A DNA stretch of 64,000 nt from Deltaproteobacteria bacterium (GTDB lineage Bacteria > Desulfobacterota > GWC2-55-46): positions 1 to 64,000 of the forward strand of contig JACREU010000002.1 in NCBI GenBank assembly GCA_016212705.1, read 5' to 3'. Positions 4,354-58,712 of the stretch are shown here, in pieces; position 1 is the first letter of the stretch, and every line of letters begins with the position of its first letter. The position numbers and the translations under genes are program-made. The notes beneath the pieces were generated by a model, which worked only from the letters and a program-made list of their open reading frames with translations, searched no databases and was not told the DNA's origin.

Positions 4354-4761
4354 ATGAGAGGGAATAAGGGTTTTACGCTTATAGAGCTTGTTATGGTCAT
4401 CGTCATTCTCGCGATACTCGCGGCAGTGGCTATTCCGAGGTTCGTGGACTTGCAGTCCGACGCGAGGCTCTCTACCGCCAAGGGCATAGGCGGGGCGATA
4501 TCAGGGGCAACGAACATACTGCACTCGCAGTTCCTGGTGCGGGGCACGGCGTACCAGCTCGGCACCACAGCGGGTTTTGCAAGCACGACCGCCGTTCTTT
4601 ATGACGCCAACATAGCCGGAGCTACCGTCACCGCCGCCGACAACGTCACCATGGCCGGCAACGCCGTCCTCATCACGATCGACATCGGCGGAAACCCTTA
4701 CACCATGACCTTCACAGGCGGCAACACGACCCTCTCCCCGAGGGTACAGTACAATTTCTAA
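4354..4761 (+). CDS. MshA-like type IV major pilin/prepilin
   Basis: MRGNKGFTLIELVMVIVILAILAAVAIPRFVDLQSDAR prepilin signature. Confidence 0.9.
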   Translation: MRGNKGFTLIELVMVIVILAILAAVAIPRFVDLQSDARLSTAKGIGGAISGATNILHSQFLVRGTAYQLGTTAGFASTTAVLYDANIAGATVTAADNVTMAGNAVLITIDIGGNPYTMTFTGGNTTLSPRVQYNF

Positions 4762-4785
4762 CCTCATCTGAGACGCATTTAAAAC

Positions 4786-4828
4786 GGACCCGTTATCGCC
4801 CTCTTAAGGAGAGTGGTAACGGGTCCTT
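4786..4828 (+). terminator. Candidate hairpin terminator after the pilin gene
   Basis: GGACCCGTTATC ... GGTAACGGGTCC inverted repeat followed by a short T-rich stretch. Confidence 0.5.
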
Positions 4829-4884
4829 CACTTTAGGAAGGTAAAATCGACGCCGCGAATGTCAGCGCGGCGTCCGGTCCCTTA

Positions 4885-7275
4885 ATGTTTTTTTTTGCCG
4901 CCATATACCTTGCCGCGCTCGCGTCATTATACTTCTCTCAGGCGCTCGGCGGCGCGTTTCTCCTCACGGAAAGGGACTTAGGCGTCTATTTCCTGCCTCC
5001 GAGGCATCTCTGGGTCGAGATACTAAAGAACGGTGAATTCCCGCTCTGGAACCCGTATTCGTACAGCGGCCACCCGCTCCTTGCGACGCTCCAGCCGGGC
5101 ATATTCTATCCCGTAAATATAATACTGCTCATATTCCCGTTCGACCTCGCGTTCAACTTATCCATTGTAGTCCACTTTTTTCTCGCCGGGATATTCACTT
5201 ACGCGCTCGTCCGGGAGCTTGGCGGCGGAAAGTGGGGCTCTCTCGCCTCGGCGGTCGCGTTCATGCTCGGAGGGTATCTCTTTTCCGCGCACAACGTGAT
5301 GTCCACGCTTTTTTCCGCCGCGTGGACGCCGCTTGCGGTATTCCTCTTCTTAAGGGCCTTGCGGCGCGCCTCGTTTGGCTACGCCGTTTTCACCGGCATA
5401 GTTATGACGGTTATGTTCACCGGCGGCGGGATTGAAGTCTTCCTCGGCACTTTCGGGCTCTTGTCCGTACTCGCTTTTTTCCCGGGCATCTTTGATTTTG
5501 ACGGCGCCGCGGCGAGGGCGAGTCTTGTCAAAAGGGCGGCCCTGCTTATTACAACAGCCGCTGTCTTCGTATCATTAGGGGCTGTGCAGTTATTCCCATT
5601 CATCGAGCTGGCGCGCCATTCGACGAGGGCAGGGGGGCTCTCCTTCTTTGAGGCGACGACGTGGTCGCTGGATGTCAAGGACTTCATCCAGTTCCTCATC
5701 CCAGACCCGTTCGGGTACGGCGTGAACGAGGATAAATACTGGGCCAACCAGAGCTGGCTTAAGACCATATACACCGGGGCAGTGCCTTTCGTGCTTTCCA
5801 TATTCTTTTTCATGAAGGCAAGGAGAAGGGCCGTGCCTTTCGTGCTTCTCGCCCTCGTTTTCTTGAGCCTCTCGATGGGCCGCAACTTCCTATTTTACCA
5901 GTACCTCCACGCATGGTCGCCTTTTTTTGACAAATTCAGGTATCCGGTAAAGTTCCTCTTCGCGCCGTTCCTCTTTATCTCCATCGCCGCGGGGCTTGGC
6001 TGTGATGCGCTCGTCGAGGCCGCCGGAAAACAGCGGAAGTCCGCGTTGAAAGTCATTTTTTTGCTCCTTGCGGCCGCCACACTCTCTGCCGCCGCATTCG
6101 GGTACCTGAGCTTCTCAGGCCAGGCGGTCAAGGCGTTCCTTGTGGATAGGGGAATAGACTATCCCGAGTACAACAGGGCTGAAATAAATATTTTCAACAC
6201 CAAGCGGCTCCTCGCCTTCTTCATTGTATTCTCTATCGGCCTGTACTTCGCGTACAGGTCAAAGGCCCTGCGGCTCCTCCCCTGGTTCGTCGTCGCAATG
6301 CTGTCAATAGACCTCTTTTTCGCGCACGAGGGCTACTACTTCTCGACAAAGAGTACGGCCTATTACGACAAGGGCAATGTGATGGGTTTCATGACCGGGC
6401 GGATGGCGGCGGAGGACAACGGGCTCTTCCGGGTATTCGTCACGCCGAAGACGATGGACGTGAACGTCGAGGTGAAGGACGCGGGAAAATTCGACAGCGA
6501 CGTCTTAAGGAAAATGGACCTCCACAAGGAGCGGCTGACCGGCTACAACCTCCTCTTCCGCGTATTCGACATAAACGGCGTCGAGGTGATGAAACGCGGG
6601 GACTATGCGAGCCTCTACGACATCATGTCCAGGCGGTCTTCGATAGACGAGACCAATATACCCTCTTTGCTGAACGTAAGATACGTGGTATCTATACCTG
6701 AGATAAGGTCAAAGCGATACAGGCTCGTAAAGGTCGTAGGCGCGCTTCCAGGCGCGACGGGCTTGGAGGCTGAGAGGGCCTTGAAGATTTATGAGAACCT
6801 CGACTTCGTGCCGCGCTTCAGTCTGGCCGCTGATTACAGGGTGATTACGAAGTCCGACGAGTTCGCCGCAACAATCTCCGGCAGAGGCTTCGACCCTAAA
6901 AAAACAGTCCTGCTTGAAGAAGAACCGTGGCCGGGCGGACAGGCCGAGGCACGCCCCATGCGGAACTGCAAAGTCGAAGTCGTAAGTTATAAGATGAACT
7001 CAATGGAGCTCCATACCGACTGCCCTGCGAGGTCCGTGCTTGTTGCTTCAGAGTCCTGGTATCCCGGCTGGAAGGCATTTGTAGACGGGAAGGAAGAGAG
7101 GATTTTAAAGGCCGACTACGTGCTCCGGGCCGTGCCGCTTGAGGGCGGAGCGCATGTCGTAAGGTTCGAGTACCGCCCAATGAGCTTTTACGCGGGCGCG
7201 TGGGTGAGCGTTGCCGCCGCCATGTCGCTCGTTGTATTCGGGATATTCCATTTTGCAAGGAAGAAAAGGGACTGA
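4885..7275 (+). CDS. YfhO-like polytopic membrane protein
   Basis: Many TM helices; N-terminal LTERDLGVYFLPPRHLWVEILKNGEFPLWNPYSYSGHPLLA and C-terminal ASESWYPGWKAFVDGKEERILKADYVLRAVPLEGGAHVVRFEYRP are YfhO-like. Confidence 0.8.
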   Translation: MFFFAAIYLAALASLYFSQALGGAFLLTERDLGVYFLPPRHLWVEILKNGEFPLWNPYSYSGHPLLATLQPGIFYPVNIILLIFPFDLAFNLSIVVHFFLAGIFTYALVRELGGGKWGSLASAVAFMLGGYLFSAHNVMSTLFSAAWTPLAVFLFLRALRRASFGYAVFTGIVMTVMFTGGGIEVFLGTFGLLSVLAFFPGIFDFDGAAARASLVKRAALLITTAAVFVSLGAVQLFPFIELARHSTRAGGLSFFEATTWSLDVKDFIQFLIPDPFGYGVNEDKYWANQSWLKTIYTGAVPFVLSIFFFMKARRRAVPFVLLALVFLSLSMGRNFLFYQYLHAWSPFFDKFRYPVKFLFAPFLFISIAAGLGCDALVEAAGKQRKSALKVIFLLLAAATLSAAAFGYLSFSGQAVKAFLVDRGIDYPEYNRAEINIFNTKRLLAFFIVFSIGLYFAYRSKALRLLPWFVVAMLSIDLFFAHEGYYFSTKSTAYYDKGNVMGFMTGRMAAEDNGLFRVFVTPKTMDVNVEVKDAGKFDSDVLRKMDLHKERLTGYNLLFRVFDINGVEVMKRGDYASLYDIMSRRSSIDETNIPSLLNVRYVVSIPEIRSKRYRLVKVVGALPGATGLEAERALKIYENLDFVPRFSLAADYRVITKSDEFAATISGRGFDPKKTVLLEEEPWPGGQAEARPMRNCKVEVVSYKMNSMELHTDCPARSVLVASESWYPGWKAFVDGKEERILKADYVLRAVPLEGGAHVVRFEYRPMSFYAGAWVSVAAAMSLVVFGIFHFARKKRD

Positions 7276-9317
7276 TGACTGACAAGAGGCCGGGACTTAA
7301 TCTCTTCATCATAAGCTTTTTGACGCTCTTCGGCGAGATGATGTTCATAAGGTACGTCTCCTCGAACATATACCTGCTGTCATACTACAAGAACGCGATT
7401 TTGATCGCCATATTCCTCGGGATCGGCATTGGTTTTCTCACGTCGAGGTCGAAGAGGAATTACATCGAGTTCATCCCCATAGCCTCGCTCGTACTTGTCA
7501 CCATCATCATCTATTTTAACGACTACCTCCGCATAGACCTCGACCACTCGCTCAAGGACGAGTCTATCTGGCCGGAGTTCTGGGCGAACACCAGGGCGCA
7601 GTCCGTCCCGATACTGGGCGTCCTCGTGTTCTTCTACGTCGCAATAGCGCTCTACTTCATCCCGCTCGGGCAGGAGACGATACGGGCCATGTCGGCGTTC
7701 AGGCCTTTGCGCGCCTATTCCATAAACGTAGCCGGGGCGCTCGCCGGCATTGTCCTCTTCGCCATCGCGGGGTGGCTCTGGACGACGCCTCTCGTCTGGT
7801 TCGCCGTCTTCCTCGTGCCGACGCTCTGGCTCAGCCGAAAGTATTCGAACAGAGTGGTCTTTTATCTCAACGCCGCCTCTATTATCATAACCCTCTTCCT
7901 CGTCTTTTCGGCCCACTTCGGCGCCGAGGTATGGTCCCCGTACAGCAGGATCAGGGTCTATCCGTTCTCGGCGCAACCGGGCTCCGGCTTCATCTCTACG
8001 ACGAACGGAAACCCGCAGGTCGGCTCCATGAACTTCGATCTCGTTTACAAAGGCCCGGAGGCGGCCCTCAACAAGGAGTCCCGCCGCATCTACGAAATAC
8101 CATATGACCTCGGCGCTCCAAAGACCGTCATGGTAGTCGGCGCGGGGGCGGGCAACGAGACGGCGATGGCGCTCCGGCAGGGCGCCTCCTACATAGACGC
8201 CGTCGAGATAGACCCTGTATTCATCACGCTCGGCTCTCATTTGTCCCCGCACAGGCCGTTTTTGGACGAAAGGGTCTCTGTCCACGTGGACGACGCGAGG
8301 GCCTTCTTCCACAAGACTAAGAAAAAATACGACCTTGTCGTCATAGGCTTCCTCGACTCCCAGTACCATCTCACGCACATGTCGAACATAAGGACCGAAA
8401 ACTTCGTCTACACCTACGAGAGCCTCAAACAGACGAAAGAGCTCCTGACCGGCGACGGCGTCCTCCAGCTCAACTACAACGCGCCCAGGCCTGACATGCG
8501 CGCGAAGCTCTATGAGATATTAAAAGACGTATACGGCGCAGACCTCGTCGTATACGCGCCGATCGGCCCGGTCTCCGGCAACATCTCCTACGTCGCTGGC
8601 CCCGGCGTGAGGGGCAAAAAGAAGGCGATCGAGGGGCTCCAGGAGATATCTTTCGGTACAATAGGGGCCCTGACGCTCCCCACCGACGACTGGCCGTTCC
8701 TCTATCTCGACGGGAAGAAGATACCGAGGGAGTACTGGTCGATGCTCCTCCTGGTGCCCGTCATCTCTTTCGCGCTCATAAGGGTCGTAGCAGGGCGTCA
8801 TGGGGCCTTCAGCCTCAAATTCTTCATGCTCGGGCTCGGGTTCATGCTCCTTGAGACAAAATCAATAACATCATTCGCGCTCCTTTTCGGCTCGACGGTG
8901 ACGGTCGTCTCCATAGTCATCGCGGCGATACTCTCATCCGTCCTCCTCGCCAACTTCATAATACACAGGTGGTACATGGAGTCCGTCATTGTCCCGTACC
9001 TGCTTATTTTCGCATCGCTCGCCGTCCTTTACTTCCTGCCCTTGAGTCTGTTTATCGGGCTCAACTGGACTGCAAAGCTCGCCGTATCGCTCCTCCTCAT
9101 TTCGGCCCCGATATTCTTCGCGTCGTTCGTCTTCGGCATATCCTTCGCCGGCTCGGAGAGGATGGACGTCGACATGGGCTCGAATATCTTCGGCGCGGTC
9201 GTCGGCGGTATGTCCGAGTACCTTTCGATGGCGATGGGCTTCAACGGGCTCTACGTCGTCAGCCTCGTAGCGTACGCGATCGCCTTTATAATAGACATTA
9301 AGGGGAGGAAGGCTTGA
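7275..9317 (+). CDS. Polytopic membrane protein with spermidine-synthase-like (SAM-binding) domain
   Basis: VMVVGAGAGNETAMALRQGASYIDAVEIDPVFITLG SAM-binding motif flanked by TM segments; start at MTDKRPGL overlaps the upstream stop. Confidence 0.75.
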   Translation: MTDKRPGLNLFIISFLTLFGEMMFIRYVSSNIYLLSYYKNAILIAIFLGIGIGFLTSRSKRNYIEFIPIASLVLVTIIIYFNDYLRIDLDHSLKDESIWPEFWANTRAQSVPILGVLVFFYVAIALYFIPLGQETIRAMSAFRPLRAYSINVAGALAGIVLFAIAGWLWTTPLVWFAVFLVPTLWLSRKYSNRVVFYLNAASIIITLFLVFSAHFGAEVWSPYSRIRVYPFSAQPGSGFISTTNGNPQVGSMNFDLVYKGPEAALNKESRRIYEIPYDLGAPKTVMVVGAGAGNETAMALRQGASYIDAVEIDPVFITLGSHLSPHRPFLDERVSVHVDDARAFFHKTKKKYDLVVIGFLDSQYHLTHMSNIRTENFVYTYESLKQTKELLTGDGVLQLNYNAPRPDMRAKLYEILKDVYGADLVVYAPIGPVSGNISYVAGPGVRGKKKAIEGLQEISFGTIGALTLPTDDWPFLYLDGKKIPREYWSMLLLVPVISFALIRVVAGRHGAFSLKFFMLGLGFMLLETKSITSFALLFGSTVTVVSIVIAAILSSVLLANFIIHRWYMESVIVPYLLIFASLAVLYFLPLSLFIGLNWTAKLAVSLLLISAPIFFASFVFGISFAGSERMDVDMGSNIFGAVVGGMSEYLSMAMGFNGLYVVSLVAYAIAFIIDIKGRKA

Positions 9318-10999
9318 GAGGGGGGGGGGCCTCAAAAGCAGGCGTTATCTCCGGAGCCATAGCCGCGTGCATCCTCGTCGTATTCATCGCAACCGCTTCA
9401 TCCGTCGCGCTTAAAAAAAACAACACATGGGACGAGTCCGCGCACATACTCTCGGGTTACGCCTATGTAAAAAACGGGATGGACTGGCTCTCGCCGCTTA
9501 ACCACCCGGTCCTGGGCAGAGCCATATCAGGCGCGCTCCCGGCCGCGTTTCTCGACCTCGACTTTGACGAGAAGGTCCGTCCGGAGGGCGCGCCCGACTC
9601 AAACTTCTTCCCGTATTCGCTTAAGTTCCTCTACGAGAACAGCGTCGACGGCGGCACAATCCTTTTCTGGAGCAGGCTTGGCAATATAACCCTCGCCGCA
9701 CTACTCGGTATATTCGTCTTTGTCTGGTCGCGGGAGCTCTGGGGGGGAAAGGGCGCGCTCCTATCTCTCTTTCTCTATGCGCTCTGTCCCAATATTATCG
9801 CGAATGCCTCCATCGCCACGACAGACCTCCCTATTACCGCCTTTTTCTTTATATCGCTCTACTTCCTCTATCGCCTTGACGCGAAGGGGGTTACGGCATG
9901 GAGGGCCACAGCCGCGGCAGTAGCGATAGCCTTCGCGCTCGCCTCGAAGCATACGGCATTACTCCTTTCCCCTATTGTCCTTGCGTCCTTCGGAATCGCA
10001 TTAAGGCGGGAGGGCAAAAAGGCCCTGCCGTATTACGCGTTACTGGTCATTACCGTCTATCTCTGCCTCTGGGCCTTGTACGGTTTCAGGTTCCGGTCCG
10101 GGAGCCCCAACTACGAGCCGCTCAATTGGTCCGCTTTCCAATCATCTTCACTGACGCCTGCCTTTGACTTTGCGAGGTCCTGGCGGCTCCTCCCGGAGGC
10201 GTACCTTTACAGTGTCGCCGGGGTCGTCATGGGGGCGTCCACCGGCAAGGCGGCCTTTCTCATGGGAGGGTATACGAGCACGGGCTGGTGGTATTACTTT
10301 ATCGTCGCGTTCCTCATAAAGACGCCTATCCCGGCGCTGATACTCCTCGTCGCCTCCGTCCTCTACCTTTTCGCGGTCCGTGAAATCAGAAAGTGCCTGT
10401 GGCTCGTCATTCCGGCGCTTATCGTTTTTACGGCGATGTCCCTTCAAAAGGTCAACATCGGCATCCGCCATATACTCCCGGTCTATCCGTTCATATTCAC
10501 GCTCATCGGTTTCGTCCCGCTAATAAATACAAAGAGCGCGAGGGTTGCCAGACTCGTCTTCGCCCTATTGATAGCCTGGTACGCCTTTTCGGCGGTTTCG
10601 ATTTATCCGCACCAGCTCGCTTATTTTAACGAGTTCATCGGAGGCCCTCAAAACGGCTACAAATATCTTGTGGATTCCAACCTCGACTGGGGGCAGGACC
10701 TTAAGGGTCTCAAGGATTACATGGATAAAAACCATATCGACAGGATAAAGCTTGCGTACTTCGGCCTCTCTGACCCGAGGTATTTCGGCATAGACTATGA
10801 GTACCTCCCGAGCTACGCGATACTCGCGCCCGTGAACGTAAAAGACGCGGTCGCTCTCAAGGGCTCTTTCGCGATAAGCGCTACCATGCTCCAGGGCGTC
10901 TACCTCGCTGACAGGGACTATTACAGGGTCTTTAGGGATATGAAACCCTCCGGGAACGTCGGATACTCCATATTCATCTATGACCTCGATAACGATTGA
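9314..10999 (+). CDS. GT-C glycosyltransferase (GT39/PMT/ArnT-like)
   Basis: TTG start; NTWDESAHILSGYAYVKNG...LNHPVLGRAISG, multiple TM helices, VDSNLDWGQDLKGLKDYM. Confidence 0.75.
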   Translation: MRGGGASKAGVISGAIAACILVVFIATASSVALKKNNTWDESAHILSGYAYVKNGMDWLSPLNHPVLGRAISGALPAAFLDLDFDEKVRPEGAPDSNFFPYSLKFLYENSVDGGTILFWSRLGNITLAALLGIFVFVWSRELWGGKGALLSLFLYALCPNIIANASIATTDLPITAFFFISLYFLYRLDAKGVTAWRATAAAVAIAFALASKHTALLLSPIVLASFGIALRREGKKALPYYALLVITVYLCLWALYGFRFRSGSPNYEPLNWSAFQSSSLTPAFDFARSWRLLPEAYLYSVAGVVMGASTGKAAFLMGGYTSTGWWYYFIVAFLIKTPIPALILLVASVLYLFAVREIRKCLWLVIPALIVFTAMSLQKVNIGIRHILPVYPFIFTLIGFVPLINTKSARVARLVFALLIAWYAFSAVSIYPHQLAYFNEFIGGPQNGYKYLVDSNLDWGQDLKGLKDYMDKNHIDRIKLAYFGLSDPRYFGIDYEYLPSYAILAPVNVKDAVALKGSFAISATMLQGVYLADRDYYRVFRDMKPSGNVGYSIFIYDLDND

Positions 11000-11022
11000 A
11001 TGTTCACTCCCAAAATACTATA

Positions 11023-11622
11023 ATGCCGTCCGTGAATAAGGGCTTTACCCTGATAGAGCTCGTCCTTGTGATCACGCTTACGGCGATAGTCGCCGCCGTC
11101 GCGTATCCGATGATCTTTGGCGGGACCTCTGCCATCTCCGTCCCTGTCTTTACAAAGAAGGTCCAGGAGGATATCCGCTACGCGCAGTCCTTAGTGCTCC
11201 TCCGCTCAAACCTCGACACCCCGAACGCCACGAACCCGACCTTCAGGTACCGCATAAGGTTCAACGTCGCGGACGCGAGCTGTCCCGGCTCGTCCCAATA
11301 CACCATAGTAAACGACGCGGACAACAACGGCACATGGGGCGAAAATCCCAACGGCTCCGGAGCCGTGGAGAGCGCAAGGGACCCCGCGTCCGGCGACTCC
11401 TTCTTCTGCGTACGCATGGACACAGGCGACTTCGATGGATTTCAGGTCTCGGCGGACTTCGGCGGCTCGGCGCCCGGGATATTGGAGTTCGATACGATGG
11501 GCGTGCCTTACGACAGCGACGGAGTGAGGCTTACGGCCTCAAAGACCGTAACTGTCGCAAAGGGCGCGATTACGGGGACAGTGACAGTTACGCCGGTCAC
11601 CGGCATGGCTACGGCACAATGA
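11023..11622 (+). CDS. MshC-like minor pilin
   Basis: VNKGFTLIELVLVITLTAIVAAVAYPMIF prepilin motif; locus position. Confidence 0.8.
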   Translation: MPSVNKGFTLIELVLVITLTAIVAAVAYPMIFGGTSAISVPVFTKKVQEDIRYAQSLVLLRSNLDTPNATNPTFRYRIRFNVADASCPGSSQYTIVNDADNNGTWGENPNGSGAVESARDPASGDSFFCVRMDTGDFDGFQVSADFGGSAPGILEFDTMGVPYDSDGVRLTASKTVTVAKGAITGTVTVTPVTGMATAQ

Positions 11623-12035
11623 TGAGAAACGAACAGGGCTTCACCCTTATAGAGGTCGTAATGGTCATAGTGGTGCTGGCGATAGCCGGCACCGGCATCC
11701 TCATGTACTTCGCTGGCCTCTCCGGCAGGCCCGACGCGGTAACGCTCGCGCAGGCCGCCGCGCTCGCGCAGGAGAAGGTGGAGAGGTTGATCGCCGACAA
11801 GAAGGCGAACGGCTTCAATACTATAGTCTCTGAGGTCCCGGCTACACTGCCCGCGCCGTTCGACAGGTTCACCCGCGAGGTCGAGGTCTTCTGCGTGCAG
11901 GAGGCCGATCTTGACACCTCAAACGGCACCATGCCTGGTTGCTCCGACTCCGACATAAACGCCAAAAGGGTGAGGGTGAATGTATCGTGGGGGGGCGGCT
12001 CATCGGACTTTGTGACCGTCATGACAAGCCACTGA
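11619..12035 (+). CDS. MshD-like minor pilin
   Basis: MMRNEQGFTLIEVVMVIVVLAIAGTGI prepilin motif; true start is inside the longer tracked ORF. Confidence 0.8.
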   Translation: MMRNEQGFTLIEVVMVIVVLAIAGTGILMYFAGLSGRPDAVTLAQAAALAQEKVERLIADKKANGFNTIVSEVPATLPAPFDRFTREVEVFCVQEADLDTSNGTMPGCSDSDINAKRVRVNVSWGGGSSDFVTVMTSH

Positions 12036-12580
12036 TGATGACCGGTCCGTTCGATAAAAAGGGGTTCACCCTTATCGAGACGGTCATGGTCATCGTCCTC
12101 GTCGGCATCATCGGCACCGTCATATCCTCCATCATGTTCCAGGGGGCGAAGTCGCTGGAGGCCGGGGACATAAGGAAAGAGCTCTCGTCCCAGGGGAGGC
12201 TCGTTGTCGAGAGGGCTTCCCGCGAGATGCGCCTTATGCGCTGTACCACGGCAGGGAACTCCTGCGTGCCCCAGGCCGCGGACGTAACGACATGGACAGC
12301 CACCGACTTGAAGTTCGTAACGGCCAATTACGAGAGGGTGGGGTTAAGGTACGACGCCGGGACGCTGAAACTCAGCTATGGCGTTGGAGCAGTTGCCGTC
12401 GACCCGGAGTACACGCTCGCCGATAACGTATCCGCGGCGTCTTTCGAATACCTTAAAAGCGACGGCACCCCGGCGGCCGCCGTGAACGAGACGTGGGTGA
12501 TAATACTCAACATGACGCTCACAAGCGGCGCCGAGTCCGTGCCGTTCAGGGCCTCGGTCCACCCGAGGGGCTTTAGATGA
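12035..12580 (+). CDS. MshO-like minor pilin
   Basis: FDKKGFTLIETVMVIVLVGIIGTVISSIMF prepilin motif. Confidence 0.8.
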   Translation: MMTGPFDKKGFTLIETVMVIVLVGIIGTVISSIMFQGAKSLEAGDIRKELSSQGRLVVERASREMRLMRCTTAGNSCVPQAADVTTWTATDLKFVTANYERVGLRYDAGTLKLSYGVGAVAVDPEYTLADNVSAASFEYLKSDGTPAAAVNETWVIILNMTLTSGAESVPFRASVHPRGFR

Positions 12581-13351: not shown

Positions 13352-15853
13352 ATGAGAGCACGCACATACATCTTTTTTGCGCTCGCGTTGGTCACGGCGC
13401 TTTTGTTCCACGCGCTCGCCGGGGCCGCCGAGACATTCTCAGTGACCGTCCCAGCTGGCACGGAAGTCACCATGCAGGACCCGAACGCCGTAATCCCGTT
13501 TACGGTTACGAATATAACCGGCTCCACCAAGGACATAAGGGAGATAACATTCAGGATAGACATCGCCAAATACAACTTCAGCACAGCTACCGTCCCTCCG
13601 GCAGGGTGGTGCATAAAGGAGGCGGAGCCAGACAGGATAACCTTCGCGCTGACACAGGGCTCAGGCGCGTGCAGCAGCGGCTCCACCACGAGCCGTATAT
13701 CACCCGGCGGGAGCCTCGTCTTCAATATTACAATGTTGCCGCTTGCCGCCTCTGCGGACGTCGCCGGGGATACGCTTACGAGCGTTACCGTCGACACCCA
13801 GGGCGGGTTCTCCCGCTCTGGCGCGCTCCCGACGTGGACACGGAGGTCCTTTGAGGCGACACTCGTTGCAACACCTGAGTCCCTCGGCGTCGGAGGGACG
13901 ATAACGCTCACCATGCAGGTGACAAACCGCTCGACAACAACGCAGTCGAATATAACATCTACCCCGACGCCGCCCACGCCGTCGAGCGCGATTGCGACCC
14001 TCTCGGAGGGCCCCTACTACGGCTCGACCGGACTCGACGGCAACCACACCTCCTCGGCGACGATTATAACCGTAGCGTCGACCGCCGGCTTCACCTCGCC
14101 GGGGGCCATAAGGATCGACTCAGAGGACGTCTGTTACACCGGGACGACCGCGACTACCTTTACCGGCGTTACGCGCGGGTGCAACCTGACGACGGCCGCC
14201 TCCCACACGACAGGCGCCGTTGTCTACGCGAAGACGCAGTACTCGCTCACGGCTGGGCAAACAGGGGTGCTAATATGGTTGTATGGCGCGACGTCGACCG
14301 GGACGGTCTACTTTACGACGCGCGCGACAAATTCCGGGTCCACCGCGAACTCCGTACTCCTTAACTCGAACACGGTCCTCATCGGCAACTTCACCGCCTT
14401 TATCACCGTAACCCCTGAAAGCGTCATAACCGGGCAGTCTGTGACTGTAGAGATGGAGGTCAGGAACAACGGTACGTCGGCCCTCATCAATATCGCGCCT
14501 TCGGCCCTTACCCCATGCGCCGGCGGGGCGACAGAGACGCTCTTAAGCGGCCCCTCGCCATCGTCCATCTCATCGCTCGGAAGCGGCTCAACAGGGGCAT
14601 TCTCATGGACTTACGCCATAACCGGGTCTCTCGGCCAGACGTACTGTCTCACAGGCTACGGTACGGCCTCGGGAGGCGCGACAACGAACACCGCTACGTC
14701 GAACTCCGGCGCTATCTCCCAGTACTCGGCGACGGTCTCTCCTTCGGTCATAGCGAGCGGGACTGCGAACCAGACCCTAACCTGGTCTGTCTACAACGGA
14801 GGCGCCTGTACCCTTAAAAATATCGAGATATCTTTCCCTGGAGGCGGAGGCAACTGGACCTGCTCGTCGGTTATTGCCCCTGCCGGGTGGACAGGCTCTT
14901 GCGGAGGGACAAAGGTGACGTTTCAATCGAGCAGTTCCGCGAACGACATACCAACGGGCGGCACAAAGGCGTTCTCGATAACGTACTCGACGACCGAGAC
15001 GGTCACTTCAGACAAGGTAGTCGCTTTCCCGGTAAACCCGGTCCCAAGGGGAGGGTGCGGGGGGTCGGAGGCGGAGATAGGCACCTATGTGACGGTTACG
15101 GCCTACGGACTCTCGGTCGCGCACTCTCCGGTCGGCCCGGTCTACGCCGACGGTAGCGCGACCTACACCATGACCGCCACACTCGTCTCAGGTAGTACGC
15201 CGGTCGCCGGAAAGACCGTGACCTTCTCGACGACGAACGGCACGCTCTCTCCGGCTACAGCCGTGACCGACGCAAACGGCGAGGCAACGGTCGCGCTAAT
15301 AGCCCCGAACAGCACCACAAACACCACCGCGACCGTCACCGCGGCCTATTTGAACTCATCAGGGACCGATATTGTCAGCTTTACCGGCTGGAACAAGGCG
15401 AATATCCAGTACTGGGGGTCGCTCTCCCCGGCGTCCGCCTCTTGCAACGCGACAGTCTCCTTTACCATGGTCCTTAAGAATATAAGCGGAACGACGTCCA
15501 TGACGCCGAATACCGGGAGTTACTTCGCCTTCAACGACTCGTCAGCCGGCGGCTCTTCCGTCTTTCAGGCGTACCTGAATTCCGCCGTGACGCTCTCGGC
15601 TGGCGCGACACAGACGCTCGTATTCGGCTCTCCTACAAGCTCGGGCGGAGGCGGAGGGGTTGTCATACCGTCCACCTTCCTTGCCGGGACATACTCTCCG
15701 ACGCTTAACTCCGCGCCGCCCCCGGCGAGCGGGCTCTTTTTGACCGACGGCGGGACAAACGACCAGTACCGGACGATTACGGATACCGTGACCATTTCAG
15801 GTGACTGCGGGTCGGTCAACGTCTACATCATAGAGTGGCACGAGTTCAGGTGA
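13352..15853 (+). CDS. Secreted Ig-like (Big_1-containing) repeat protein in the MshQ position
   Basis: Signal peptide; Big_1-like segment TYTMTATLVSGSTPVAGKTVTFSTTNGTLSPATAVTDANGEATVALIAP; Thr/Ser-rich. Confidence 0.7.
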   Translation: MRARTYIFFALALVTALLFHALAGAAETFSVTVPAGTEVTMQDPNAVIPFTVTNITGSTKDIREITFRIDIAKYNFSTATVPPAGWCIKEAEPDRITFALTQGSGACSSGSTTSRISPGGSLVFNITMLPLAASADVAGDTLTSVTVDTQGGFSRSGALPTWTRRSFEATLVATPESLGVGGTITLTMQVTNRSTTTQSNITSTPTPPTPSSAIATLSEGPYYGSTGLDGNHTSSATIITVASTAGFTSPGAIRIDSEDVCYTGTTATTFTGVTRGCNLTTAASHTTGAVVYAKTQYSLTAGQTGVLIWLYGATSTGTVYFTTRATNSGSTANSVLLNSNTVLIGNFTAFITVTPESVITGQSVTVEMEVRNNGTSALINIAPSALTPCAGGATETLLSGPSPSSISSLGSGSTGAFSWTYAITGSLGQTYCLTGYGTASGGATTNTATSNSGAISQYSATVSPSVIASGTANQTLTWSVYNGGACTLKNIEISFPGGGGNWTCSSVIAPAGWTGSCGGTKVTFQSSSSANDIPTGGTKAFSITYSTTETVTSDKVVAFPVNPVPRGGCGGSEAEIGTYVTVTAYGLSVAHSPVGPVYADGSATYTMTATLVSGSTPVAGKTVTFSTTNGTLSPATAVTDANGEATVALIAPNSTTNTTATVTAAYLNSSGTDIVSFTGWNKANIQYWGSLSPASASCNATVSFTMVLKNISGTTSMTPNTGSYFAFNDSSAGGSSVFQAYLNSAVTLSAGATQTLVFGSPTSSGGGGGVVIPSTFLAGTYSPTLNSAPPPASGLFLTDGGTNDQYRTITDTVTISGDCGSVNVYIIEWHEFR

Positions 15854-16969: not shown

Positions 16970-17728
16970 ATGAGCCTAATACACCAGGCCCTTAAAAAAA
17001 TCGAGGCCGCCAGATCAGCTTACAACCCACCTGCGGAGTTTACGCCGCCTTCCGCGGGCAGTAGGCGGCCTAAGGCCGCGGTTATCGTTGCCGTGTTGCT
17101 CGTCGTTCTCATCCCGGCCGGGTACGCGGCGTACTCGCTCCTATCATCCGTTGAGAAGGTTGAGCGCGCCGCTAATGACGACCCCGGACTTGACGCGCTT
17201 AAGGCCTCCATCTCCGCGCCGCGGAGACCAAAGACGGACGTGGACCCTTCGGCGCATAACGCCAAGGGGATTGAGCTGTTCCGGTCCATGCAGTACGGGG
17301 ACGCGGAAAAGGAATTCAAGGCCGCGCTCGCTCTAAGGCCGGTTGAAGCGGCATACTACAACAACCTCGCGCTCGCTCTCGCTCTCAGTGGGAGGGAGGA
17401 AGAGGCCTTGACGCTCCTTAAGGAGGCGCTCGACTTGAACCCGCGCCACATCGAGGCGCTCAATAACCTTGGCGCGCTCCTCGAGAGGAAGGGAGATGCC
17501 GCCTCAGCGGTCAAGAGGCTCAAAGAGGCGTTGAAGATAGACCCCGGCTACGCGGACGCGCTTTTAAACCTTGGAGTGGCGCTGGAAAGACAGGGGAGGA
17601 CAAGGGAGGCGCTGGAGGCATACGAGCGCTTCCTCGAGAAAGACCGTACAGGCCCGCAGGGCGAAGAGGCGGCTAAAAAGGTCATGAGGCTTAAATCCGG
17701 GCTCATAATAAAAGCGCGTGAGGGCTGA
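16970..17728 (+). CDS. TPR-repeat protein with GspB/MshN-like N-terminus
   Basis: MSLIHQALKKIEAA N-terminus, single TM segment, several TPR repeats. Confidence 0.8.
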   Translation: MSLIHQALKKIEAARSAYNPPAEFTPPSAGSRRPKAAVIVAVLLVVLIPAGYAAYSLLSSVEKVERAANDDPGLDALKASISAPRRPKTDVDPSAHNAKGIELFRSMQYGDAEKEFKAALALRPVEAAYYNNLALALALSGREEEALTLLKEALDLNPRHIEALNNLGALLERKGDAASAVKRLKEALKIDPGYADALLNLGVALERQGRTREALEAYERFLEKDRTGPQGEEAAKKVMRLKSGLIIKAREG

Positions 17729-18771
17729 TGCTACCCGGCAAACGTAACCTCATAGGCGTTGACATCGGGTCGTATTCGGTGAAGGTCGTCTCTCTCGTTG
17801 GGACTGAAGGCTCCTATACCCTCGCAGGCGCGGCCCTCTTCAGATTGCCCAGCGAGGGCGGAGAGGCAGTGCCGGTGACGCCCCCCTTTCTCTCCGGCAT
17901 ATTGCAGGCCAAAAGGATAAAGGGCAGGAGGGCCGCCGCCCTTATGAACGGCCCCTCTCTCATATTCAAGCATTTGAAACTCCCGGTCATGCCGGAAAAG
18001 GACCTGAAGGAGGCGGTCCGCTGGGAGGTGCGCAAAGACCTCGCCATCGCGGTATCCGCGGCAGACCTCATCCTCGATTACATGAGCGCCGCAAAGACAG
18101 CCAAACCCGGGGACAATACCGTATCCATCGTCGCCTTCGCGGCGGTAAGGAGCGACGTTGAACGCACCATCTCCCTTTTCAGGGACGCGGGCCTCGAACT
18201 CCGCGTCCTCGAGGTCGCTCCTTCCGCGCTCCTATTCTCATTCAACATCAGCAACGCCTGGGAACCCGGCGTCAACTACGCGATGCTCGATATCGGCGAG
18301 ACCAAATCCACGCTCGCCATACTCAAGGACAAGAAGCTCTCCTTTACGCGCGAGATAGGGATGGGAGGCGCTGACTTCACTAAGTTCCTCGCCTCGGGGA
18401 TAGGTAAGCCCGAGGCGGACGCCGAGGATTACAAGATAGCCTTCGGTCTTACTGCCGAAGACGAAAATGAGGACAAGGCGAAGGAGCTCCTCACCCAGGC
18501 CGTCGAGAGGCTCTGCACCGAGGTCCAGCGGTCGTTCGATTACTTCCAGGCGCAGTTCAGGGAGGGAAGCGTAGCCAAGCTCTTCATCTCTGGCGGCTCG
18601 TCAAGGCTCAAGGGCATAGAGGCTGTCATCTCGAAGATAATAGCGGTCCCTGTCTTCAAGGACGACCCATTGAGGTCCATACAGATACCGAAGGCGTTCG
18701 ACAGGGCGGAACTCGCGGAAATCGCCCCGTGCCTGACGATAGCCGTAGGGCTCGCCGCGAGGAAGTCATGA
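17728..18771 (+). CDS. pilM: Type IV pilus assembly protein PilM (MshI-like)
   Basis: NLIGVDIGSYSVKVV actin-like fold; MLDIGETKSTLAIL. Confidence 0.9.
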   Translation: MLPGKRNLIGVDIGSYSVKVVSLVGTEGSYTLAGAALFRLPSEGGEAVPVTPPFLSGILQAKRIKGRRAAALMNGPSLIFKHLKLPVMPEKDLKEAVRWEVRKDLAIAVSAADLILDYMSAAKTAKPGDNTVSIVAFAAVRSDVERTISLFRDAGLELRVLEVAPSALLFSFNISNAWEPGVNYAMLDIGETKSTLAILKDKKLSFTREIGMGGADFTKFLASGIGKPEADAEDYKIAFGLTAEDENEDKAKELLTQAVERLCTEVQRSFDYFQAQFREGSVAKLFISGGSSRLKGIEAVISKIIAVPVFKDDPLRSIQIPKAFDRAELAEIAPCLTIAVGLAARKS

Positions 18772-19367
18772 AGGGCATAAACCTCATACCCGAAGAGATA
18801 CAGAGGGGATGGCGCATAAGGAAGTGGCGGCTCGCCTTCATCGCTTCTTTTGCCTGCTATCTCCTTTTCCTCGTAGCGGTCTTCGCGCTCCAGCGAACGG
18901 AGCTTAAGGGGCTTAAGGCCGTGGAGGCCGCGCTCATCTCCCAAAAAGACGCCCTCTCGGGCAGGAGCTCCGAGTACGCGCTCCTGACAAAAAAACTCTC
19001 GGATATACACGCGGCGGAAGGGGAGCTCAGCCAGAGGCTTGGAGTCGCCTCTGAGCTGAAGGACAGGAGGGTATCCTGGTCGTTCGTGCTCAAAAAGCTC
19101 AGCCACGAGGTGCCTAAGGGCGTGTGGCTCCGGTCCCTCTCCACATCCGACGTACAGGGCACGACTGAGAAAAAGGTCAAGTTCCTCGGCTCGGCCACAA
19201 ACAACAGGGCGATCGCCGACTTCATCTTCAAAATAGAGAACTCCGGCAACTTCAGGGACGCGGCCCTCTCGTACTCGCAGAAAAGGGAGATGGGCGGCAC
19301 ATCCGTCTATGACTTCGAGGTCTACGCGACCTTGAGAAAGACAGGCGAGGTGCTCTATGAATGGTGA
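18768..19367 (+). CDS. pilN: PilN-like assembly protein
   Basis: MKGINLIPEEIQ motif plus TM and coiled coil; tracked ORF start is 39 nt upstream. Confidence 0.85.
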   Translation: MKGINLIPEEIQRGWRIRKWRLAFIASFACYLLFLVAVFALQRTELKGLKAVEAALISQKDALSGRSSEYALLTKKLSDIHAAEGELSQRLGVASELKDRRVSWSFVLKKLSHEVPKGVWLRSLSTSDVQGTTEKKVKFLGSATNNRAIADFIFKIENSGNFRDAALSYSQKREMGGTSVYDFEVYATLRKTGEVLYEW

Positions 19368-19956
19368 CGCGCTAAGGCGCTTGAAGGACGTGGACTTCTC
19401 TTTCCTTAAGTCGTTTAAGCGGGAGGCCCTCGCCGTTGGCGTACTTGTCATCCTCTCGCTCCTCTTCTACAGGTTCGGTTATAAGAGGAATATAGACGAG
19501 ATGCATGCGCTGAGGTCGGGTAGCGAGGCCCTGCGCTCGGAGATACAGATGGCGGAGGCCCAGTCGCGGGCGTCGGAAGGGCTGTCAAAGGCCGTGAGCG
19601 ACGCTACGGTAAACCTCAAGACCGTCGAGGGGAGGCTCAAAAGCCTCAAGGAACGTTTGCCGTCGGATAAGCAGGTCTCCAGAATACTCTCGGAGTTCTC
19701 CGAGAGCGACTTCCCGCGCGGCATAAGGATAGTATCGATAAAGCCTCTGGAGCCCGAGGCAAAGGGCGAGCTCTCCAGGCTACCGTTCCATATAAAGATG
19801 GAGGCGAAGTTCCAGTCATTCGGGGATTACCTGGAGCGCATCGAGAGGCTCCCGAGGCTCATGGTCGTCGATAACTTCATGATAGAGGGCGGCGACGCCG
19901 CGGACCTTACGGCTGAAGTATATCTCAGCGCCTATATATTGAGCTACGGAAGATGA
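19357..19956 (+). CDS. pilO: PilO-like assembly protein
   Basis: TM + coiled coil + SFGDYLERIERLPRLMVVDNFMI; position after pilN. Confidence 0.85.
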   Translation: MNGDALRRLKDVDFSFLKSFKREALAVGVLVILSLLFYRFGYKRNIDEMHALRSGSEALRSEIQMAEAQSRASEGLSKAVSDATVNLKTVEGRLKSLKERLPSDKQVSRILSEFSESDFPRGIRIVSIKPLEPEAKGELSRLPFHIKMEAKFQSFGDYLERIERLPRLMVVDNFMIEGGDAADLTAEVYLSAYILSYGR

Positions 19957-24425: not shown

Positions 24426-24514
24426 GGTCTCCATCGCCTCCGGCAGAAGGGGCTATTAAGAAGCCCCGCATACGGTTGCGGGGACCTGATGAGAAGACTA
24501 CGGAGTTTTTATTT

Positions 24515-25510
24515 TTGGAAAGCGAAGCGTTATCAGCTCTTGCGGGAAAGCTCGTGCCGGGGAGGTTCTACGACGGCTTTTTCGTAAGCGAATACGGGCG
24601 GCTTGAGGCCCTCCGCGCGGCGCGTTACAACAGCGCCTTCTCGGTAATCATCCTGACGATCGACCACGGCCCCGCAATTGACGAGGGCGCGGGCCTTGAG
24701 GCCCTTAGGGCTACCGCCAGGGCCTGCGTGGACTCCATCAGGAACTGCGACGTAGCCGGGCTTACCGGCGACGGGCAGATAACCGTCATACTCCCGGAGA
24801 CCGACTGGTTCGGGTCCCTCGCCGCGACGAGGAAGATCTCGAAGGCCGTTTCCGCTAACCTTCCGAGGGAGCGGGGACAGCCCTCGGCCATACTCTCCAA
24901 CGCGACTTTCCCAAAGGACGGCAGGGGCTACGGAGAGGTCGTAAGCGCGGCCCTCAAAAGGGCCTCTGACCGCAGGGGGTCCGTCTGGGAGAAGGCGGGC
25001 TTCAGAAACAGGCTCTTCTGGGAGATACTCGGAGACCTTACGGGCGCGGGGCAAAAAGGCGCCGGGTGCGCCACGTTCGACGCGGGCGCGAATCAGGAGC
25101 TCAATGAATTCTTTCTCGACCAGATCAACGACTTCGTCGCCAAGGAGGTCTTGCGGTCGCCGCAAAGACGCGGCATAGCGTACTTCGCGTTCAGGGACAT
25201 CGACCCGGGGCTCCCGCTCCTTAAGTCCCTCAATTCCTCTGGGGCGCTCTCGGCAAAGGTCTTCCTCGTAGGCGAAGGCGGCTCCCGCTCGATCGAGGTC
25301 AAGAACGCGACCCCCATACTGCTTGACGACCCGAGGCTCCGTGAGACGTCCTTCACTTTTTATTTGAGCGAGGAGTCGGGCTACGCCCTCGTCTGCAAGG
25401 AGAACTGGGGCGAGACATTCTCGTGCTTTCATACGTCGGACGAGTTCCTCGTCGAGGGGCTCATAACGAAGTTCCAGAACGAATACTCCTTGCAGGAACA
25501 ACTCGGCTGA
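24515..25510 (+). CDS. Protein with degenerate GGDEF-like domain and an unassigned C-terminal domain
   Basis: FYDGFFVSEYGRLEALRAARYNSAFSVIILTIDH...SIRNCDVAGLTGDGQITVILPETD; only alternative start codons available, TTG 24515 chosen because of upstream GGAG. Confidence 0.6.
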   Translation: MESEALSALAGKLVPGRFYDGFFVSEYGRLEALRAARYNSAFSVIILTIDHGPAIDEGAGLEALRATARACVDSIRNCDVAGLTGDGQITVILPETDWFGSLAATRKISKAVSANLPRERGQPSAILSNATFPKDGRGYGEVVSAALKRASDRRGSVWEKAGFRNRLFWEILGDLTGAGQKGAGCATFDAGANQELNEFFLDQINDFVAKEVLRSPQRRGIAYFAFRDIDPGLPLLKSLNSSGALSAKVFLVGEGGSRSIEVKNATPILLDDPRLRETSFTFYLSEESGYALVCKENWGETFSCFHTSDEFLVEGLITKFQNEYSLQEQLG

Positions 25511-55479: not shown

Positions 55480-56883
55480 CTAAGATTTGCCATTTTTGAA
55501 GGCCATCATGCCAGCAACATACATGGCTATGAGAAGATTGAAGCATCCGATGTAGAATATAGACCCATAGGAATTGGCCGAAATCGCGAGCGCAACGAGC
55601 GATCCGCCGAATGAGAACCTGATGAAATCCAACTCGTTCGAGGCGATCCCCTTTCCGAGAGAATGGATTCGTAATCCGGTGAAGACGAGGAGCGCGAGCC
55701 CTATGACGCCTGTCTCGGCGGTCCACTCGATGTACGAGTTTAGTATCGCCACCCTGAAGGCCTCGAAGTCAAGCGAACCGAAGTTTAAGTTTATGGACCC
55801 GGACACGGCCTTTGTGAGAAGAGGCGATTGACCTATACCAACACCTGTAAACAGGTTGTCCGCTATCATCTCCATGCCTATCTTCCAGGTAAGGGTCCTG
55901 CTGTTAATGGTAAGCGCTTCGCTTATCAGCTTGCCGGTTATCGCCGAGCTTACGAACTCATGGAACGAGTATATGATGACGCCTATGAAAAGAGCGGCCC
56001 CCGCGAGCGCCCTCCCCTTGACTCCTTTTCTGAATATCAGAAGGACTGAAAGAACGCTCAATATCATCGATACCGAAAAAGTGAGGGCGAGCGCGATGGC
56101 CGTAAGCGAGAGTATGAGCTTTAGCGTCCGTTTGGAGTATCGGCAACCCTCGTAGCCGTACCGTGTCGCTCCGATAACGGGGAATGTCATCGTAACGAGC
56201 AGTAGCCCGTAGGTCTGCGGCTCTCCGACGTATCCTCCAATCCTCAAAAAAGGGAATGTGATCACGCTCCCGAGCCTTACGCCCGCGGCCGCGTATAAGA
56301 TGAACTGCAGGAGCCCGAAGCAGACGGCCGCTGTATGGAGCTGTATGGCGAAGTTGATGGCGGTAGCGATCCTCTTTCTGCCGCTCAGGGCCGATATGAC
56401 GAAGTCGATTGCGAATAGCGAAAGGAAGAGCCTTATAAGGAACGAAAGCCCCCTGTACCCCGGGGAGTTGATGCCGACGGCCCAGGGCAGTGCGTAGCTC
56501 TCCGCAGGAAAGGCCTTCCCTGGGATGAGGCTCGATAGCATTAGGGAGATGGACGCCCATATGAATATGAGAAACAAAGGCGCCTGCAACGGGTGTGGTT
56601 TGGGATCGAACGAGCCTTTTGCGAGTACTTCGACGATGGATACCGCGAGCATGGCAACGGCAGTGAGGGATGAGGCGCTTATCGAGCCCAACTTCAGCGC
56701 ATTGTCGTTCGACATAACGAAAGCTGAGGCTATGAAGGCCATGGTAAGAGCGAACCTGGGGTTTGCGCGGCCCGCGCGCGTCAAGGGATAAAACAGCGTG
56801 CCTTGGAAGCGGCCCGCCACGCTGTCTGCAAGCGCTACTGTCGCCTGCCTGTTTGCCTCTCTTGTCCCCTTCACCACTTCCAC
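55480..56883 (-). CDS. O-antigen ligase/polymerase-like membrane protein
   Basis: Polytopic; GEPQTYGLLLVTMTFPVIG, NSRTLTWKIGMEMIADNLFTGVGIGQSP. Confidence 0.75.
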   Translation of the reverse strand: MEVVKGTREANRQATVALADSVAGRFQGTLFYPLTRAGRANPRFALTMAFIASAFVMSNDNALKLGSISASSLTAVAMLAVSIVEVLAKGSFDPKPHPLQAPLFLIFIWASISLMLSSLIPGKAFPAESYALPWAVGINSPGYRGLSFLIRLFLSLFAIDFVISALSGRKRIATAINFAIQLHTAAVCFGLLQFILYAAAGVRLGSVITFPFLRIGGYVGEPQTYGLLLVTMTFPVIGATRYGYEGCRYSKRTLKLILSLTAIALALTFSVSMILSVLSVLLIFRKGVKGRALAGAALFIGVIIYSFHEFVSSAITGKLISEALTINSRTLTWKIGMEMIADNLFTGVGIGQSPLLTKAVSGSINLNFGSLDFEAFRVAILNSYIEWTAETGVIGLALLVFTGLRIHSLGKGIASNELDFIRFSFGGSLVALAISANSYGSIFYIGCFNLLIAMYVAGMMAFKNGKS

Positions 56884-56924: not shown

Positions 56925-58577
56925 TTACCTCTTTCTGTATATCTGATAAGAGCCAAGTTCCATCACAGGTTCGAAGGCCAGGTCGATCTTCCGCATCTGA
57001 TCAGGCGCGAGCCTCGCAAAATTGACCCTTCTCTCGATTATCCAGTCCCAATTGTTCAGGTCGCCGGAAAGGGCCGTCAGGGACCCTGCCTTACTGAATT
57101 CCATCCCTGTGTAGTACATTATGTCGCCGGGGATGACTACCGCGCTCCAGGACGGGATTGCCGCCCTTACAAACCCTATCGTCTCTTTTGCGCCGGTCTC
57201 TCCGTACTGGACCCTTGTCTGGTACTGACCTGTCGCCTGTGACGCAAAGAGAGAGATGAAGGATGCGATGGAGAGCGCGACAAGCGTACTTCGAACCGTC
57301 GTTCCTGCGCGCCATCTGCAAAAAAGACGCGCCATTGCAAAGACCGCCGCGTTCATCGCCGTGTAGACGAGGAGATAAGAGGCGAGCCCCGTATAATCGC
57401 GGACCCTGTAGCGCAGAAGCGTCTCATACATGGGGTCGCCTGCAATCACATAAAAGATGCCGGCAAAGACGGCAACCACAAGCAACGCAGGAGCGAAGCG
57501 CATCTCAATTAATTCGCGCCTGAGGGAGGTAAAAACAAAGAGGGCCGATAACGGGTATAACGGGTAAAAATATTTAAGCTCTCCGAAGGGGTACGGGTGC
57601 AGGAATAAATAAAAAAAGAATATCGAAGTTATGAGGATCAGGAGGAGATTTTCTACGCCGCCGCGCCTCCATTCCTTAACGACACTGACAGCGGCAGTTA
57701 GGAATAGCGCTATGAAAAACGGACTCAACCAGAACGTCATCGCCATTATCTTCGTAAGCGGCGAGAAGAACGCCACGCCTGAGGCAAATAGCGGCGCGCC
57801 CTCCTGAGTTTTATTGAAGGCGATGAATTCGAAGGAGTTGGGGCCGTCTATGAAAAAGTACGCGTATGCGAGGTAAAACGGAACGAACGTGACAAGGGCA
57901 GACGAGAGGATGAGGGCCGAGTTCCTTATGGCCCTCCTGATGCCGACGCCTGTGGTCGCCTCATAGACAAGCGTTGAGAAAACGAGGAGGAACGGCGTAA
58001 AAAAATATTTTGCCCACATGGCAAGACCAACAAGGAAACCGGCCTTGAGGTAAAAGGCCGTTGATGATTCTCCGATGGGGCGGCCCTTGATATAGTAGAG
58101 GAGCGCGATGAGGATAAGCGGGGTCAGCACAACCGGCTCCATCTCAAGGAGGAGCGAGCCGTGGACAAAGGGCGGCATAATGGCGATAAAGGCGAGCGCA
58201 AAAGGCGCGACCCCGCCTATATCAATCGCCTTCATGATCCTCCAGAGGAGAAAGAGGCTCAAGACCGCGGAAGCGGCCCCCAGAAAATAGAGCGAGTGAA
58301 AACTGTCTCCCAACAGGGTCCGCGCGGCTTTCCCCATTAGCGCGTAGAGCGGCGGGTGGCAATAATAGGCGAGCGCCCTTCCCCAGCTCGCGGTGTCCCT
58401 GATGTGTATTACCTCCTCGTGCATCGGGAGCTGGAACAGGAACGGCGCCGCTAAGACGAGATAAATGGCGGCAGAGGTAGAAAACGGCCGGCCTTCCGTG
58501 AATGAGAGAGAGCGCTCCGAGGTTCCCTCCCACCCCCTCTTGTCGTTCGCCAGTGCTTTATCTATCGGGTCGCTCAT
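56925..58577 (-). CDS. GT39/GT83-like membrane glycosyltransferase
   Basis: HEEVIHIRDTASWGRALAYYCHPPLYALMGKAARTLLGDSFHSLYFLGA; polytopic; start at MSDPIDK preceded by GGAGGAG. Confidence 0.8.
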   Translation of the reverse strand: MSDPIDKALANDKRGWEGTSERSLSFTEGRPFSTSAAIYLVLAAPFLFQLPMHEEVIHIRDTASWGRALAYYCHPPLYALMGKAARTLLGDSFHSLYFLGAASAVLSLFLLWRIMKAIDIGGVAPFALAFIAIMPPFVHGSLLLEMEPVVLTPLILIALLYYIKGRPIGESSTAFYLKAGFLVGLAMWAKYFFTPFLLVFSTLVYEATTGVGIRRAIRNSALILSSALVTFVPFYLAYAYFFIDGPNSFEFIAFNKTQEGAPLFASGVAFFSPLTKIMAMTFWLSPFFIALFLTAAVSVVKEWRRGGVENLLLILITSIFFFYLFLHPYPFGELKYFYPLYPLSALFVFTSLRRELIEMRFAPALLVVAVFAGIFYVIAGDPMYETLLRYRVRDYTGLASYLLVYTAMNAAVFAMARLFCRWRAGTTVRSTLVALSIASFISLFASQATGQYQTRVQYGETGAKETIGFVRAAIPSWSAVVIPGDIMYYTGMEFSKAGSLTALSGDLNNWDWIIERRVNFARLAPDQMRKIDLAFEPVMELGSYQIYRKR

Positions 58578-58670
58578 GGACTTCTCCTCCCGCGTTGATT
58601 CATTGCCGCCCACATGCGCCCACCCGCCCCCACACCCATTAAACAAGGTATGCCGCTCCCCGCTATGCCA

Positions 58671-58704
58671 CCCCACCCCACCCCACCTGCCCACCCACCT
58701 GCCC
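58671..58704 (-). repeat. G-rich GGTGGG-type microsatellite, G-quadruplex motif on the coding strand
   Basis: Reverse strand GGGCAGGTGGGTGGGCAGGTGGGGTGGGGTGGGG in the intergenic spacer. Confidence 0.75.
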
Positions 58705-58712
58705 ACCTGTTT

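Follow-up and report, generated by a model that had tools for sequence, protein, structure and literature searches.

A pilin-linked YfhO gene cassette in MSHA-like type IV pilus loci and its possible role in pilin modification

Described systems of pilin and surface modification

Glycosylation of pilins is best known from pathogens, for example Pseudomonas and Neisseria. TfpW of Pseudomonas aeruginosa is described as a GT-C enzyme, and a terminator is reported after the pilin gene in pilin-accessory cassettes (PMC11841053). YfhO is needed for the glycosylation of lipoteichoic acid in Bacillus subtilis (PMC5836110), and PgfM1 for protein modification in Streptococcus mutans (PMC5856776). NHMT, an N-terminal methyltransferase of Aspergillus, acts on secreted proteins (PMC10349129). 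No description of a pilin-linked YfhO cassette was found; among the papers searched, YfhO together with type IV pili led to work on teichoic acid alone.

The locus described here lies in a window of 64,000 nucleotides, which is the whole stretch of DNA that was analysed. It belongs to a 2.0 Mb draft genome that is 86% complete, and its named relatives are 'Deltaproteobacteria bacterium' MAGs. The findings point to an undescribed cassette that decorates the pilus, of which yfhO is the constant part and the spermidine-synthase-like gene an occasional add-on.

Organization of the locus

The pilus locus contains, in order, the genes of an MshEN/T2SSE ATPase (MshE, at 815) and of PilC/MshG (at 2532), both recognized by profile matches of the Pfam/NCBIfam type, and the gene of a 135-residue major pilin in the MshA position (4354..4761, plus strand; Pfam N_methyl), whose orthologues lie directly 5' of yfhO. 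The intergenic stretch of 4762..4884 is followed by three genes for membrane proteins on the plus strand: yfhO (4885..7275, 796 residues), the middle gene (7275..9317) and gtc (9314..10999, 561 residues). The downstream border of the cassette is a minor pilin gene in the MshC position (11023..11622, plus strand, likely ATG at 11023), identified by N_methyl and by its sequence; N_methyl minor pilins are matched by Pfam over 10996-12580. A Ser/Thr-rich protein in the MshQ position (13352-15853) and profile matches to a second ATPase (15962), a TPR protein (16970), PilM/N/O (17728-19956) and a secretin (20330) complete the locus. MshE with MshEN, MshG, pilin, minor pilins, MshM/N-like and PilM/N/O-like proteins and the secretin thus occur together, as in MSHA-type loci. 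MshP and MshQ are assigned by position, and as the profile search gave no family match for the product of 13352-15853, 'MshQ-like' is a positional label.

The gene borders are tight. The stop codon of yfhO (TGA, 7273-7275) overlaps the likely ATG (7275) of the middle gene, which probably does not start at the GTG of position 7200. The stop of the middle gene (9315-9317) overlaps the TTG start of gtc at 9314. The open reading frames, their close or overlapping borders and the pilus surroundings all agree with the placement of three membrane-protein genes inside an MSHA-like locus, between the major and the minor pilins, that had been proposed in the preliminary description. Relatives share this order of genes, so the arrangement is not due to chance.

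Elsewhere in the window, a 344-residue reading frame without a Pfam match (24476-25510) overlaps a DUF4388/response-regulator reading frame at 25423. The minus strand of 41390-63987 holds a polysaccharide export and assembly locus with Wzi, SLBB/Poly_export, Wzz, Polysacc_synt_2, Glycos_transf_4 and several glycosyltransferases. It also includes a member of the O-antigen-ligase family (55480-56883), a second PMT_2 GT-C protein (56925-58706) and two B12-binding radical SAM proteins.

Conservation and link to pilin genes

For the survey of the class, the pilus genes of the window were mapped onto the loci of class genomes. In 21 of these genomes yfhO and gtc adjoin or are split solely by the middle gene, and a pilin gene precedes them in all 20 whose contig extends upstream. 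The gtc gene lies in the yfhO locus in 21 of 24 class genomes and elsewhere in three (L127, L132, L133). Minor pilins follow the cassette wherever the contigs show that side, with the exception of genome G011, whose MSHA-like locus (L090, 5398-11876) has two pilins, yfhO, gtc, a short reading frame and mshM, without minor pilins or MshQ. Of the 21 yfhO-gtc loci, 9 contain the middle gene (five of the genus of the window, G020, G022 and two from family f7) and 12 lack it. A fixed three-gene unit is therefore rejected: the supposed conserved trio is a yfhO-gtc duo with an optional middle gene.

Two features of layout were noted in the same loci. In three genomes gtc is separated from the pilus gene that follows by a reading frame for a small membrane protein of 72-76 residues (L090, 6451-6669; L091, 7848-8078; L097, 1211-1429). 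In family f11 (L099, L100, L101) the mshM-mshL part of the locus is separate from the mshE-pilin part.

A sample of 395 genomes from one phylum yielded YfhO matches in 54 genomes and GT-C matches in 20 (both at E<=1e-30), and matches of the middle protein in 18 (E<=1e-40). In 39 YfhO neighbourhoods pilin-type reading frames were sought upstream on the same strand. In a tree of 58 YfhO proteins, built quickly without bootstraps and with unsure long outer branches, every pilin-linked protein falls within one clade of 45 (SH-aLRT 100). A pilin gene stands directly 5' of yfhO in 43 of the 44 evaluable members of this clade, a count in which L036 and L130 are scored as linked from pilin matches of the locus mapping and L220, at a contig edge, is left out; L234 is the sole unlinked member. 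Outside the clade the linkage is 0/13. The clade spans 13 families (f1, f2, f5, f7, f11, f20, f22, f31, f36, f46, f61, f64 and f84), across which neighbourhoods and tree together uphold the tie of YfhO to pilin genes. The preliminary description had named an occurrence of the genes mostly away from pili as evidence against its proposal. That is not the case for YfhO; it is so for the middle gene, and for GT-C the picture is mixed, none of the distant relatives fetched from outside the class being at a pilin locus.

These data bear on what is modified. The cassette might decorate a surface polysaccharide or lipid such as LPS or capsule, its position beside the pilin gene reflecting shared regulation or inherited order, so that the acceptor could be another surface glycan instead of pilin. 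YfhO of B. subtilis acts on lipoteichoic acid (PMC5836110), the minus strand of the window carries polysaccharide export genes, and the distant GT-C relatives outside the class lie away from pilin genes. The pilin-yfhO adjacency is nevertheless kept over the 13 families despite differing surroundings, and YfhO proteins without a pilin link branch separately, which makes a surface-glycan target unlikely. The minor pilins or the Ser/Thr-rich protein of 13352-15853 are less probable again as targets in place of the major pilin. The cassette does stand directly 5' of the minor pilins in the window and in the class; the two-pilin locus of G011, however, keeps yfhO and gtc without minor pilins or MshQ, and in families f20 and f31 no minor pilins come after the pilin-yfhO pair. 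Of the two modification targets first put forward, pilin or the MshQ-like protein, the former gains from its tie to yfhO and the latter is weakened by G011.

The YfhO-family protein

The Pfam matches of the cassette proteins are partial and weak. YfhO matches PF09586 (E=1.7e-8, 33.8 bits against a gathering threshold of 28.5) over residues 694-775, in its C-terminal part, and because the match is confined to this domain the fold was examined with a structure model. The AF2 model (pLDDT 82, pTM 0.84) retrieved with Foldseek AftD, AftA (TMt 0.52), ArnT (TMt 0.54), OST and DPY19, and each of the 13 PDB matches at E<=0.001 is either a GT-C enzyme or a complex that includes one. With query-normalised TM-scores of 0.31-0.43 for these 13 matches, the relation is one at the level of fold. 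Among the structural matches ArnT, AftD and OST use lipid-linked sugars, and the predicted GT-C fold supports the link to lipid-linked sugar transfer that had been drawn for YfhO at the outset.

The first outer loop carries E29-R30-D31, a motif with acidic residues of the GT-C type, and the C-terminal beta domain carries ESWYPGWKAFVDG. The ERD motif is found throughout the pilin-linked clade where it is covered, with DRD once. A PDB sequence search gave no match for either YfhO or GT-C. The genome of the window also encodes a YfhO paralogue (L137, 7364-10113), which is split over two reading frames of 377 and 580 residues, perhaps by a frameshift or an assembly error.

The second GT-C protein

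The product of gtc (9314-10999) matches PF13231 PMT_2 (E=6.6e-9, 36.6 bits against a gathering threshold of 26.1). Alignment of 20 orthologues revealed invariant D40-E41, H44, D57 and H64-P65 near the first outer loop. A protein search of the draft genome found no paralogue at E<=1e-3. That YfhO and GT-C form one homologous pair was considered and rejected: profile-profile comparison yields no alignment, so it is gene order alone that suggests a joint function.

The middle protein

The middle protein matches PF01564 (E=3.6e-6) over residues 306-424, a spermidine-synthase-like Rossmann domain placed between two predicted blocks of 7 TM helices; the blocks are drawn from an AF2 model of moderate confidence (pLDDT 66), as are its Foldseek matches. 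It contains SAM-binding-like motifs (GAGAGNE, VEIDP, DDAR), and a profile search leads to spermidine synthases, with an alignment to 1uir. In aminopropyltransferases the first Asp of the DxxD stretch is catalytic. Aminopropyl transfer requires an acidic residue in GxG(D/E)G (PMC10349129). The corresponding positions of the middle protein are A317 and G383 (numbered from the GTG at 7200). All aligned homologues have Ala or another non-acidic residue at that place in GxG(D/E)G, and Gly, Ala or Ser instead of the first Asp of DxxD; the second Asp is kept. Spermidine synthase activity is rejected on the loss of both residues. The protein may instead be a methyltransferase; of the methyl and aminopropyl transfer suggested in the preliminary description, the former is retained as a possibility and the latter dropped.

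Relatives of the middle protein outside the class lie at pilin-yfhO sites in 4 of 15 loci and elsewhere in 11. A spermidine-synthase-like gene stands behind pilin-yfhO in L217, L225, L226 and L236, on the opposite strand in L217 and L236. The tree of the protein needs two state changes, and the pilin-linked proteins are monophyletic in 0 of 200 bootstrap trees. Two separate recruitments to pilin loci are the probable history of the gene; the alternative would be one early gain followed by losses.

The topology of the protein poses a puzzle. By positive-inside counts in 23 homologues, each half of the protein puts the Rossmann domain on the outside, which is hard to square with a SAM enzyme. 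One reading is that the protein methylates pilin, at its N-terminus or on its glycan, from a catalytic domain that faces the periplasm. It draws on these counts, the lost aminopropyl residues, the fungal 7TM SpdS-like methyltransferase (PMC10349129) and the methyltransferases that recur beside or fused to pilin-linked YfhO. It would require SAM outside the cytoplasm, and it is a doubtful proposal with little probability.

The pilin gene and the hairpins behind it

The major pilin has a GFTLIE motif, no Cys and 21% Ser/Thr after residue 30. The pilins contain 47 N-X-S/T sequons against 31 in shuffles; the sequences are related and the rows not independent, and the excess identifies no site; it was set aside.

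The stretch between pilin and yfhO (4762..4884, plus strand) contains two strong GC-rich hairpins, with a fold energy of -53.4 and z of -4.9. In 13 class relatives the median z is -3.3, compared with 0.0 and 0.3 in two control intergenics; a third control, the mshE-mshG gap, has a median of -3.4 over 5 loci with strong folding in 3 of them, and with mononucleotide shuffles and few controls the comparison is not clean. Scanning for a terminator consensus gave no more matches than expected by chance, and the fold-energy comparison alone was retained. By analogy with pilin-accessory cassettes, the hairpins are a possible attenuator.

Partner genes and proposed function

In other families the gene next after yfhO varies. 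It encodes a GT2 in L215, L216, L220, L223 and L228 and a member of the O-antigen-ligase family in L227, L231, L234 and L229, and a methyltransferase gene lies behind yfhO in L218, L223 and L244. The ten partner proteins scanned with profiles were chosen by hand, so that this is a list and not a frequency test, and those of L220, L244 and L229 were assigned by eye from near-identical N-terminal sequences. In L214 (8656-11805) YfhO itself is fused to a C-terminal methyltransferase domain, giving a protein of 1049 residues. The GT2 of L215 resembles DPM synthase and ArnC, and the genome of the window holds a GT2 that is 54% identical to it, next to reading frames that resemble, by eye, a GDP-mannose dehydratase, a reductase and another GT-C. 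Of the flippases that a three-component scheme (GT2, flippase, GT-C) would use, the GtrA type (PF04138) was the one sought, and it was not found in the 86% complete draft.

It has to be considered that the proteins are membrane chaperones or pilus assembly factors whose catalytic function is lost, since some pilin-accessory genes, such as TfpY, serve assembly without glycosylation (PMC11841053). The GT-C acidic residues kept in both YfhO and GT-C and the recurrence of sugar enzymes as neighbours make this very improbable.

The reading preferred here, with a probability of roughly 0.68, is that these genes form a cassette for modifying the major pilin, and that the modification is most likely glycosylation. 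A cytoplasmic GT2 encoded elsewhere in the genome would load a sugar onto undecaprenyl phosphate, and the loaded carrier would be flipped across the membrane. At the outer face of the inner membrane, YfhO would move the sugar to newly inserted major pilin; the second GT-C may add a further lipid-linked sugar or act together with YfhO. Where present, the 14-TM middle protein would probably give a SAM-dependent methyl group, not an aminopropyl group, to the glycan or the pilin, and the hairpin after the pilin gene may hold expression of the cassette below that of the pilin.

If this is true, a YfhO-family enzyme that is tied to the major pilin in 13 families, all of them environmental bacteria, would extend pilin glycosylation to MSHA-like pili, and it would hint at what a large set of YfhO proteins without annotation do. 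A pilin gene directly followed by an ERD-type YfhO would then be a bioinformatic marker of modified pili, and the exchange of partners next to an unchanging pilin-yfhO pair would open glycan diversification to testing.

Comparison with known systems

The middle protein is like NHMT in having 7 TM helices with a SpdS-like domain in which the acidic residue of GxG(D/E)G is replaced (PMC10349129); the likeness is one of architecture, and unlike the fungal enzyme it has a second 7-TM block. In the Pgf operon of S. mutans, two multi-TM proteins and a glycosyltransferase modify surface proteins and are encoded beside the substrate gene cnm (PMC5856776). The link to the present case is a weak match of the NCBIfam PgfM1 model (E=2.8e-4), far below the cut-off. 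CsbB-YfhO of B. subtilis combines a PF09586 protein with a GT2 thought to make the lipid-linked sugar (PMC5836110), and here too a GT2 follows yfhO in several families. B. subtilis, however, is Gram-positive and its acceptor is lipoteichoic acid; the Pfam model matches only the C-terminal domain here. TfpW/TfpO of P. aeruginosa shares with the present locus a membrane glycosyltransferase gene in a major-pilin cassette, with a terminator reported after the pilin (PMC11841053). It differs from the present case, in which the pilus is MSHA-like, a YfhO-family protein is constant, a second GT-C is found in the class and the partners vary. On the best reading the cassette would work like tfpW/tfpO, to which it is likened by description.
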